NCBI GenBank assembly: GCA_021776275.1
Contig: JAJFGH010000098.1
Coordinates: 1-34,686, forward strand
Origin: Alphaproteobacteria bacterium
GTDB taxonomy: Bacteria; Pseudomonadota; Alphaproteobacteria; GCA-2746255
Length of the DNA stretch: 34,686 nucleotides
Reading direction: 5' to 3'
A model generated the notes under the pieces. That model ran no database searches and was not told the origin of the DNA. It saw nothing but the letters and a program-made list of their open reading frames with translations. This document shows positions 4,516 through 8,437 of the stretch, piece after piece. Numbering within the stretch: the first letter of the stretch is position 1; every line of letters starts with the position of its first letter. The translations under genes and the position numbers were made by a program.

Positions 4516-5013
4516 CTATTCGTGGTCGTGGTTGTCTTCGTGCGAAGGGGCGGTGCTGGGGGTTTCGACGTCGGAGCGAACCCCGAGGCCGTGTTCGTAA
4601 ACAAGCTCGCCGCCCTCAAAGGCGGTAAGGCCTAACATGCCAAGGGCAATTGCAAGGGCCGCCAAAAAGCCAAGGGCAATTTTTTCATTGCGCCGATACA
4701 TGCGGGCTGCCCACAGCGCCAGCACCCACCAGGCAATGGCCGTCGGCACCGCCCAGTTTCGATGGTCCGTCATTTCCGCGTGGCTCGCCGCGTCATGAGT
4801 GACGGTGTAATAGGCGTAAAACCCGGCGCTGATGGTGGCGATCGTAAAAAACGCGCCAAGCCAGAGATTCCAATAGGCCGCAATCTGCAACGGCTTGGCC
4901 CAGCTTCTGCTGGCGAAGGCTGTGCTTGTAAAAAAAAGCAGGCCCGACGTCACAAAAAGAGCAACCGTGAAATGGACGAAGATCGGGTGCCAGTTGGGCA
5001 CAATTTCGATCAT
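4516..5013 (-). CDS. DUF2231-type small membrane protein with His/Asp-rich C-terminus
   Basis: NWHPIFVHFTVAL start typical of DUF2231, four hydrophobic segments, C-terminal SHEDNHDHE. Confidence 0.75.
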   Translation of the reverse strand: MIEIVPNWHPIFVHFTVALFVTSGLLFFTSTAFASRSWAKPLQIAAYWNLWLGAFFTIATISAGFYAYYTVTHDAASHAEMTDHRNWAVPTAIAWWVLALWAARMYRRNEKIALGFLAALAIALGMLGLTAFEGGELVYEHGLGVRSDVETPSTAPSHEDNHDHE

Positions 5014-5098
5014 GCTTTTCTCCTGGACTTAAGATGCGCCATCGGGGCTGCGACCCGGAACGCGTTGTGACGCATTCCGGGTCGGTGCTTTTCTTCTT

Positions 5099-5365
5099 TT
5101 AATGGTCTTGCATCATTTCTTTCATGTGTTCTTTTGCTTTTTCCTTATTCCCTTCCATCTTCTCCATATTTTTTTCCATTTTCTCCATGTTTTCTTCTTT
5201 CTTCATTTCCTTGTGGGATTTTGCTTCGTCCTTGTGCTCTTGCATCATGCCTTTCCCTTGCATCATGCCGTCTTTTTTCTCCATGTGATGCCCGGCCAGG
5301 CTGGGCGAAGCGGTCATCGCCAATGCGAGGGCAAGGGCCGGTATCGTAAAAAAGAATTTTTTCAT
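5099..5365 (-). CDS. Small secreted Met/Lys/Glu/His-rich protein, putative periplasmic metal-binding peptide
   Basis: MKKFFFTIPALALALAMTASPSLAG signal peptide followed by HHMEKKDGMMQGKGMMQEHKDEAKSHKEMKKEENMEKMEKNMEKMEG. Start chosen at MKKFFF, not the ORF-track start. Confidence 0.65.
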   Translation of the reverse strand: MKKFFFTIPALALALAMTASPSLAGHHMEKKDGMMQGKGMMQEHKDEAKSHKEMKKEENMEKMEKNMEKMEGNKEKAKEHMKEMMQDH

Positions 5366-5415
5366 CGGATGTCTCCTTCCTAAGGGTCTGTCACGGATTC
5401 GATAACGTTTCAGGC

Positions 5416-6645
5416 TCAATGCCCGCCTGAAATGGGCCCGAAATTGAAAGCATCGTGTTCCAGGTTAAGAATGCTGCCTCGTTCGCCGACCGATTCATTG
5501 AAGATATGGTCAAAGGCGAACACGAATCCAAGGACGAATTTATGTTCGCTGTCGATGCCGGTCGCGGTTTCCAGAAGCGAATCGTTCTCCGTGTATTGGT
5601 ATTGGGTAAAGAAATCGATTCCGCTTCCAAGGCGGTAGGCGTAGGTCGGCACGATCGAGAAGGCCGAGGCGTTCGAGAAATTCCGGTAATCCTTCCAGGC
5701 GACGGTAATTGCCGCTTCGCCGCGGGTTTGAAGGTAGGGGCGGTAGAGGAAGCGAAGCGAGGCCGCGACGCCCATGCTTTCCGCCCGGCGCCGTTCGAAG
5801 CGTTCCGCCAAGGCGGACACCTTGGCGCCGTCCTGGTAGATCCCCTGAACGTCCAGCGACCATTCGCCTTCCGGGTTGCCGTTGAGGTTGAGGGATAGCG
5901 CGCCGATGAGCGCAAAGGCCTCGTCCTTGGGTGCCGTGCCAAGGGCGTCGAGGTTTTGAAAATAGCCGGTGAGGCCTGCGAAGCGTACGCCGGGCGCCAC
6001 CATCAAGGCTTCGGGTATTTCATAGGCAAGGGTCACGCTGCTGCCGTTCACGTCGCTGCTCGATTGGCGCTTGGCGGCGAGGTTCGTCTCCGTCTGGGCG
6101 AGCAGGGCGCCGGAAAAGCGCAAATTCGGCATGGCCCACCAGCTTGCCTGGCCGAGGCCGCCGAAGATTTGGTATTCCTCGGCTTCCGCGTTCGACTGGC
6201 CGTTGCCGACATAGACAAAATCGACAAGGTCGTCGTCGCGGATGGTCGGAAAGGCGATCAGCCCGTTTGGCAGTCGCGACCGTCCCATCTTGACCTCATA
6301 AGCCGGCCCGCCGATTCCGGCGAAGGCCTGATGCAGGTAGATGTCGTCTTCGAGGTCCGTATCGTCTTCGGGCGCCTTGATGCCGAAGGTGGCAAAGCCA
6401 TAGCTTTCGCTGTCGAAGAGGTATTTCGAAAACCCGAAAAGCAGGCTGCTGTCGGCAATGTCGAGCTTGGTCGAATCGCCGCTGCCCGGGCCGTTTTGCC
6501 AGGTCTGGTCGAAGGTGGCGACGATCCGGCCGCCGATGGCGATCTCCGGCGTTACTTTCGGATCGATCTCCAGGGCAAACGCCGGTGGCGCCGCAAGGCA
6601 GGCGGCCAGCGCGATGGCGAAATGTCGAGTGCGTTGGTTTTTCAT
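5416..6645 (-). CDS. Outer-membrane porin-like beta-barrel protein
   Basis: Signal peptide (FAIALAACLAAPPAFAL), acidic and aromatic alternating beta-strand composition, porin-like GGRIVATFDQTW and KMGRSRLPNGL segments. Confidence 0.65.
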   Translation of the reverse strand: MKNQRTRHFAIALAACLAAPPAFALEIDPKVTPEIAIGGRIVATFDQTWQNGPGSGDSTKLDIADSSLLFGFSKYLFDSESYGFATFGIKAPEDDTDLEDDIYLHQAFAGIGGPAYEVKMGRSRLPNGLIAFPTIRDDDLVDFVYVGNGQSNAEAEEYQIFGGLGQASWWAMPNLRFSGALLAQTETNLAAKRQSSSDVNGSSVTLAYEIPEALMVAPGVRFAGLTGYFQNLDALGTAPKDEAFALIGALSLNLNGNPEGEWSLDVQGIYQDGAKVSALAERFERRRAESMGVAASLRFLYRPYLQTRGEAAITVAWKDYRNFSNASAFSIVPTYAYRLGSGIDFFTQYQYTENDSLLETATGIDSEHKFVLGFVFAFDHIFNESVGERGSILNLEHDAFNFGPISGGH

Positions 6646-6654
6646 CCTACCCTC

Positions 6655-7941
6655 CTATTCGTTCAAGGCGATGGACGGCACATAAGGCGCGTCGTCCATG
6701 TCCTCGTAGGTCAGCATGGTCAGCATGCCGCCCGGATAAATGCCGTTGTTCGTCACGCGACGGACGTCGTGATCGTGAAACGTCCAGAAACCCGGATTGT
6801 CGCCATAGATCACAATGTCGGCGGTTTTTCCGGGATGGATGGGGATGGTGTTCATCCGCTCGGGCCGCTCCAGCGGGTTGCCGTCATCCGCCACTTTCCA
6901 GAACTGGTGCCCGTGCAGATGCATGTGGTGGGAAAGCATGCCGCCATTGATGAGGCGGACGCGGATATATTCGCCTTTTCGAATCTTGATGGCTTCGGTC
7001 GCCGGATAGGATTTTCCGTTGATCGCGAAGAAATCCGGCTCGATTTTCGGGGCCTCGGCATTGCCGCGCGTATAAGGGGGGTGCCAGCCGTCCTCGATGG
7101 CCTGCACAAAATCCGCATAGGTTTTGAAAAACCCGTGGGTTCGCGAAGACAGCTTCCCCAAGGCCATCAGGCGGTTCACGCGTTTCATGCCCTTCAGGAC
7201 TTCGTTCATGGTCTTGCGCGAAAAATTCAGGTCGAAACTTTCCAGCATCAGCACGTAGTCCCGTTCGTAAGGAAAGCGTTTGCGAATGGGATCGTCCGAT
7301 GATTCGATAATGAAGGCGCCGTGAAGCGCCGACATCATGTGCATCGGCGTCGACCAATGGCAGTGATAGAAGCGGGTGCCGGCGGGCCGCGCCTGAAAGC
7401 GATAAACGAAGGTCTCTTTTGGGTGGATCGGGTCCTGGGTCACCATCGGCACGCCGTCCATGGTGTAAACGACGTCGAGGCCATGCCAATGAACCGTGTG
7501 CATCTCTTCCGTGTTGTTCGTCACGCGGACCTTGATCCAATCGTTTTCCTGAACCCGGAAGACCGGTCCCGGCACCTGGCCGTTGAAGGCGAAGGCGGGG
7601 AGGTGCACCTTCGGCAACAATTCGTGGTTCACGATGTCGAAGCTAAGGTCAAAGGTCCGGTAAGAAACGTCTGCGTCGGAAGGCGCGCCGGGCGGCTCCG
7701 TGATGGCGCCCATCATGTTGTGACCCGGCGTGTACATCATCGAGCCCTTGCCCGGCGCATTGGGCTGGGTCATGTAGCCATGGCCATGGCCTTCCATCTC
7801 GGCGGCGTTGGCTGCCCCGGCAACCAGGCTGCCGCCGGCCAGGGCCAGCGTCGTTTGAAGAAATCGCCGCCGGCCGGCATCGTCCGGCCGCGCCAGGGCG
7901 GTTTCTTCGGTTTTGAATGGGTGGTCCGGGCTCTCCGACAT
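6655..7941 (-). CDS. Multicopper oxidase-family (CopA-like) protein, Tat-exported, atypical T1 site
   Basis: RRRFLQTTLALAGG Tat-type signal, then HWHG, HCHW and HMHLHGH motifs. C-terminal motif is HDHDVRRVTNNGIYPGGM. Start taken at MSESPDHPF. Confidence 0.85.
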   Translation of the reverse strand: MSESPDHPFKTEETALARPDDAGRRRFLQTTLALAGGSLVAGAANAAEMEGHGHGYMTQPNAPGKGSMMYTPGHNMMGAITEPPGAPSDADVSYRTFDLSFDIVNHELLPKVHLPAFAFNGQVPGPVFRVQENDWIKVRVTNNTEEMHTVHWHGLDVVYTMDGVPMVTQDPIHPKETFVYRFQARPAGTRFYHCHWSTPMHMMSALHGAFIIESSDDPIRKRFPYERDYVLMLESFDLNFSRKTMNEVLKGMKRVNRLMALGKLSSRTHGFFKTYADFVQAIEDGWHPPYTRGNAEAPKIEPDFFAINGKSYPATEAIKIRKGEYIRVRLINGGMLSHHMHLHGHQFWKVADDGNPLERPERMNTIPIHPGKTADIVIYGDNPGFWTFHDHDVRRVTNNGIYPGGMLTMLTYEDMDDAPYVPSIALNE

Positions 7942-8018
7942 GTTGTCGCTCCTCATTGCCTCGTCGCCACGAAACCGCCAATTGGCGGCCGCGAAGCGGT
8001 TTCATCGTTTCGGGCGGA

Positions 8019-8375
8019 TTAGAGGATGGCGAATTGCGGAGGGGCGGAAGGGGGTGCCGTCAGATGGCTGGGAGGCAGGCGAAGCGCCCGGGGCTGGACG
8101 ATGGGCGCCGGCAGGGCGCGGCCGGCGACGGCGATTTCCGGCACAAGGCCGGAGGCGACGGCGACGCTGCAACAGCACCCGGCCATGGGCTCGCACGATG
8201 TGTTTTGGTCATGGGCGACGGCTTCATTCGAAGCCATCTCATGGTGCGAACTGGCGGCTTCGTCGCAAGGAGAGGCCTGGCCGCCGAGCGCCGTCCAATC
8301 CGACGCGGCCAGCAAGGCCGCCCCGAGAATCAGGGCAAATCCAAAGGCCAGATAGGTGGAAGCCGGTTTTTTCAC
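8019..8375 (-). CDS. Small Cys/His-containing secreted or membrane protein, putative metal-associated
   Basis: GTG start VKKPASTYLAFGFALILGAALLAASDW (hydrophobic N-terminus), then SHHEMASNEAVAHDQNTSCEPMAGCCCSVAVASG and a Pro-rich tail. First gene after the CueR-like promoter. Confidence 0.5.
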   Translation of the reverse strand: MKKPASTYLAFGFALILGAALLAASDWTALGGQASPCDEAASSHHEMASNEAVAHDQNTSCEPMAGCCCSVAVASGLVPEIAVAGRALPAPIVQPRALRLPPSHLTAPPSAPPQFAIL

Positions 8376-8406: not shown

Positions 8407-8437
8407 CGAGTAAACGTTCCCGCGGCTGGAAGGTCAA
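8407..8437 (-). promoter_or_regulatory. CueR/MerR-family type metal-responsive promoter
   Basis: Minus strand reads TTGACC-TTCCAGCCGCGGGAACGTT-TACTCG: -35, 19-bp spacer, -10. Embedded dyad ACCTTCC-N7-GGAACGT resembles the ACCTTCC-N7-GGAAGGT operator of CueR-controlled copA promoters. Confidence 0.72.

Follow-up and report, generated by a model that had tools for sequence, protein, structure and literature searches.

Which regulator reads the promoter of a copper operon when the genome around it yields no regulator of the expected family? The minus strand of the stretch of DNA studied here raises this question. The stretch (the window, 34,686 nucleotides) is contig C181 of a draft genome of 1.70 Mb, 183 contigs and 89% completeness.

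The promoter site and the genes behind it

The first-pass annotation described a TTGACC hexamer, a 19-bp spacer and a TACTCG hexamer, with an internal dyad that carries one mismatch in its second arm, about 32 bp upstream of the GTG of a small gene. Sequence and coordinates were right (Table 1); 31 bases separate the hexamer from the GTG at 8375, and the full minus-strand reading is ccatTTGACCTTCCagccgcgGGAACGTTTACTCGtttgacc. The annotation also saw here the layout of CueR-activated copper promoters, which our comparisons bear out. Scored against the consensus TTGACCTTCC-N7-GGAAGGTNTA (19 fixed positions), the box reaches 18/19, its sole mismatch lying in the second dyad arm and within the natural range (relatives have GGAACAT, GGAACAC or GGAAACC), and it is conserved independently in the congener G002 and four other MAGs. 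Escherichia coli promoters scored alike give 19/19 for copA and 18/19 for cueO, the latter the same as the window box. PcopA and PcueO share with it the TTGACC hexamer, the 19-bp spacer and the ACCTTCC-N7-GGAA arms, and cueO also encodes a multicopper oxidase, whereas the −10 differs (TACTCG in the window, TAACCT in copA, TATGCT in cueO) and the window, in contrast to the E. coli cueO system, has a two-domain oxidase with a leader gene ahead of it and an assembly in which no cueR was found.

Chance matches of this quality are not expected. No other place in the window matched the promoter consensus with three or fewer mismatches, no match arose in 100 dinucleotide shuffles of the window, and under an independence model the expected number of matches at 18/19 is 9e-6 in the window and 4e-4 in the 1.7-Mb genome. 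With a profile trained on the other sites, this one scored 34.6 bits, and the next best unrelated match in the window reached 5.7. The dyad alone is uninformative when searched window-wide with three mismatches (1.27 matches expected by chance), and the significance comes from adding the promoter frame. The −10 hexamer agrees with TATAAT at 2/6 and does not end in T; in most relatives the −10 reaches 4/6 with the spacing likewise at 19 bp, and TACTCG is the weakest −10 among the compared boxes, L105 excepted. Another candidate −10, TTTACT, matches at 4/6 with 17-bp spacing. Judged by its sequence, the site at 8437-8407 on the minus strand is almost certainly a real CueR/HmrR-type copper promoter heading a multicopper oxidase operon, and thus a further example of a known promoter type.

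Table 1. Positions of the promoter elements and genes of the minus-strand copper operon in the window.
Feature	Position	Strand	Details
CueR/HmrR-type promoter	8407..8437	(-)	TTGACC (8437-8432), 19-bp spacer, TACTCG (8412-8407)
CueR-type dyad	8414..8434	(-)	ACCTTCC (8434-8428), N7, GGAACGT (8420-8414)
CutF/CopL-like leader	8019..8375	(-)	118 aa, GTG start, signal peptide, CxxxxxCCC, C-terminal PPSAPPQFAIL
Putative anti-Shine-Dalgarno CGCCATCCTC	8022..8031	(-)	last leader codons; ten-locus joint signal, not significant here alone
Likely oxidase Shine-Dalgarno GAGGAG	7949..7954	(-)	from sequence
Two-domain multicopper oxidase	6655..7941	(-)	twin-arginine-like leader; nearest solved structures are the two-domain oxidases 3g5w and 2zwn
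Outer-membrane porin-like protein (Porin_4)	5416..6645	(-)	always adjoins the oxidase in L105-L118
Small exported Met/His-rich protein	5099..5365	(-)	ORF opens at 5419, ATG 5365 likelier; counterpart in G002
DUF2231 membrane protein	4516..5013	(-)	last gene of the presumed operon

The divergent neighbor of the operon is an acyl-CoA dehydrogenase gene. The type 1 copper cysteine of the oxidase lies in domain 1 (YHCHWSTPMHMM), and there is none in the C-terminal HDHD motif; the oxidase is therefore not of the three-domain CueO/CutO kind. An alternative oxidase start, ATG 7956, is less likely than ATG 7941, which stands behind GAGGAG and agrees with the start positions of orthologues. A search for intrinsic terminators or a second promoter within the operon gave nothing above shuffles, and this, with the gene order, would allow the genes from leader to DUF2231 protein, 8375 to 4516, to form a single transcript. 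The proposal that one metal-sensing MerR protein controls everything from 8375 down to about 4516 is thus consistent with the gene order and the lack of internal signals, but no MerR gene was found in the assembly.

The same promoter in other genomes

In G002, the interval from purU to the acyl-CoA dehydrogenase gene contains a leader gene, a three-domain CopA-type oxidase, CopB, the Met/His protein and DUF2231; the same interval holds DUF2231 alone in G003 and nothing in G001. The G002 box, in the syntenic place, reads TTGACCTTCCACCTGCCGAAAGGTCTA and is identical to the window box at 21 of 27 positions, the flanks at 16/60 and 22/60. A side-by-side view of the two operons (L081 7372-11431 in G002, 4516-8375 in the window) has the CopA-type oxidase and CopB replacing the two-domain oxidase and the porin. 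The middle genes are swapped between congeners, and thus the enzyme pair varies while the promoter, the first gene and the last two genes are kept.

Outside the genus, a scan of GTDB genomes for the oxidase gave 14 loci. The orthologous oxidase operon is preceded by boxes in L106 (16/19), L107 (17 and 16) and L105 and L116 (15/19 each), and none was present in the DNA examined for the gammaproteobacterial orthologues L108, L109, L110 and L112. The genomes of L106 and L107, which have the best-scoring boxes, encode a Ser-type CueR over the cut-off, and in those of L105 and L116 the only MerR relatives score lower and carry Cys at CueR's Ser position. A near-consensus pattern occurred 10 times in 9 genomes, a reversed control pattern 0 times. 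The CueR/HmrR regulon would thereby extend to a leader-headed two-domain oxidase operon common to several alphaproteobacterial MAGs, and genomes with and without CueR offer a natural comparison for following operator decay.

Some single loci differ in detail. In L107, a second CueR-type box (4544-4570) stands ahead of the gene for a small c-type cytochrome, upstream of the oxidase operon. A CueR from the L106 genome (L137) has Tyr replacing the second metal-binding Cys (ERPEYPILDG). In G012 (L160, about 1500-1580), an oxidase gene and a copper-ATPase-like gene flank a back-to-back pair of CueR-like dyads.

The regulator and the trpG locus

The first-pass annotation reported no MerR gene in the window, correctly, and our search extends this result to the whole draft genome, where no MerR-family gene (MerR_1 domain) was found; congener genomes have 2 to 5 such domains each. 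The annotation would have taken the lack of a MerR/CueR homologue in the genome as a refutation, and its suggested scan indeed found none, although this absence is not decisive because the MAG is only 89% complete. The scan for other dyad copies, also suggested there, found one at the trpG locus. In G002, a true CueR (TIGR02044, 162 bits against a cut-off of 147; Ser-type sensor loop, C-X7-C) is encoded directly after copA, between trpG and a divergent-polysaccharide-deacetylase-like gene, and the copA box reads TTGACCTTCCAGTAACTGGAAGGTGTA. In the genome of the window, trpG and the deacetylase gene lie on one contig, and between them are only TTGACCTTCTGGCGGCGAGAAGGTTTA, a perfect 7-7-7 CueR dyad and the second dyad of this genome, and some 50 bp similar to the beginning of copA, so that copA-cueR has been deleted there. 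The copA stub (AGCTTACGCCGAAA, which G002 and G003 have too) stands directly before the next gene, the remaining half of which lies with trpE on contig C159. The remnant itself, a perfect dyad with a short copA stub, occupies G000:C174:13969-14090 (L077). A box and copA also adjoin trpG in the genome of L106 (L164), and the order trpG, box, copA, seen both there and in G002, is therefore probably old. Another copper ATPase gene in the window's own genome, on contig C53, is not followed by a cueR and is truncated at its 5′ end by the contig edge.

This arrangement recalls the alphaproteobacterial HmrR system, in which the signal is ACCTTCCAG-N3-CTGGAAGG and the regulator is the second gene after the copper ATPase (PMC1526738). 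The signal is the same here, and the regulator follows the copper ATPase in G002 and G004, whereas a deletion has removed copA-cueR from this position in the window's own genome.

The own cueR is either lost or encoded in the approximately 11% of the genome that was not assembled, and we favor the latter, since both own operators are well kept (18/19, and a perfect palindrome) and genomes in which only Cys-type sensors were found have degraded boxes or none. CueR activation is established for promoters of this kind (PMC1526738 and references therein), and sequence and context point to it here. The overlong spacer would keep the promoter off without activated CueR; a CueR dimer on the dyad, once loaded with Cu(I), Ag(I) or Au(I), would re-align both hexamers; and the activated promoter would transcribe leader, oxidase, porin, Met/His protein and DUF2231. 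The regulator would be encoded in the unrecovered part of the genome, its old copy beside copA at trpG being gone. Together with a leader that adds a second layer of control, this is the reading that we consider probable overall.

It is also conceivable, although we think it rather unlikely, that the promoter has been orphaned: cueR would have been lost with copA at trpG, the box would be a decaying relic, and the leader or some other regulator would be in control, while transcription would be constitutive or begin elsewhere. Such a history would explain a deletion that lies at the ancestral locus inside a single contig and has left a copA stub, the lack of any MerR-family match in 89% of the genome, and the weak TACTCG, beside which TTTACT at 17-bp spacing could serve without an activator; G001 and G003 are likewise without a Ser-type CueR. 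A relic would not, however, be expected to keep two dyads in such condition, when genomes in which only Cys-type sensors were found have boxes reduced to 15/19 (L105, L116) or none found (G001, G003), and there is room for one gene in the 11% that is missing.

Far less probable than loss of the regulator is that a divalent-metal sensor of the ZntR, CadR or PbrR type reads the site. The layout is common to MerR-family sites, and G001 and G003 carry Cys-type sensors, but no MerR-family gene of any type was found in the recovered part of the window's genome, the operon is a copper operon, and arms of the ACCTTCC/GGAA type are reported for CueR and HmrR (PMC1526738). The MerR proteins of G001, G003, G059 and G070 were considered as CueR candidates and rejected on an alignment that places Cys at CueR's Ser, and they are therefore more likely divalent-metal sensors. 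Chance resemblance without any promoter, for which only the weak −10 might speak, is hardly credible against a box absent from all 100 shuffles and conserved at the same place in independent genomes.

The leader gene and a possible translational layer

The first-pass annotation called the first gene product a Cys/His protein, but more specifically it looks like a CutF/CopL-type leader. The protein has an N-terminal hydrophobic signal (a signal peptide as judged by eye), the cluster CEPMAGCCC and a PP near its stop, within the last 15 residues; it is shorter than 150 aa and is followed, after a 77-nt gap, by the oxidase gene on the same strand. These features follow the CutF rule, which asks for a small exported protein, encoded ahead of an oxidase, whose final 15 residues include PP (PMC8456105, PMC9973294). 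Leaders of orthologous operons repeatedly have PP[RQ] ahead of the stop. The CxxxC copper motif is absent from the window leader, which has CEPMAGCCC instead, and cysteine patterns vary among relatives. On these features, the first gene probably encodes a copper-responsive translational leader of the CutF/CopL type, so the promoter need not be the sole copper switch.

Rhodobacter capsulatus cutFOG provides the closest precedent: a small exported first gene product, likewise of 118 aa, with a cysteine motif and PP near its end, is followed by a Tat-type multicopper oxidase whose Shine-Dalgarno (SD) sequence can be sequestered (PMC8456105, PMC9973294). The systems differ in the motif (CxxxC there, CxxxxxCCC here), in the two-domain oxidase here, and in the third gene, which is a porin and not CutG; moreover, cutF transcription is reported to be copper unresponsive (PMC8456105, PMC9973294), while the window leader has a CueR box ahead. 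Following the CutF precedent, the leader tail may sequester the oxidase SD, and copper bound by the nascent exported leader may delay the ribosome at the PP motif and so release the SD.

Over ten loci, the oxidase SD and the final 42 nt of the leader had a mean predicted pairing of 0.64, against 0.29 for shuffled tails and 0.19 for other slices of the same gene, and 0 of 20,000 joint draws reached the ten-locus mean. At the window locus taken by itself, 22% of shuffled tails pair as well with the oxidase SD, and G002 is negative; SD pairing is therefore a property of the family and not proof for this operon. The local leader/oxidase hairpin at the window locus was not more stable than shuffles (z −1.1). 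As an observation apart, the codons of the leader PP motif (CCTCC) seem to double as the oxidase anti-SD in L105-L118.

A second, leader-based layer of control is plausible. A more specific circuit is rather unlikely: cytoplasmic Cu(I) would set transcription through the CueR-type promoter, and periplasmic copper would set translation of the two-domain oxidase through a leader in which the codons for PP are themselves the anti-SD; once this lineage had lost cueR, the copper response would fall to the leader alone. Transcriptional sensing in the cytoplasm would then be stacked on translational sensing in the periplasm, a directly testable AND-type copper gate.

The Xanthomonas copLAB operon and the Bordetella cruR-DUF2946 leader likewise place a small Cys-rich first gene before an oxidase, G002 has a copL-copA-copB-like order, and CopL has been discussed as perhaps isofunctional with CutF (PMC8456105, PMC9973294). 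In contrast to these, the window protein has no Pfam match and falls well below the cut-off of NCBIfam CopL_fam (NF033807; 16.1 bits against 40, E 0.013, a subthreshold score). The gammaproteobacterial leader of L110 comes near DUF2946, with an E value of 1.9e-4, just under the cut-off.
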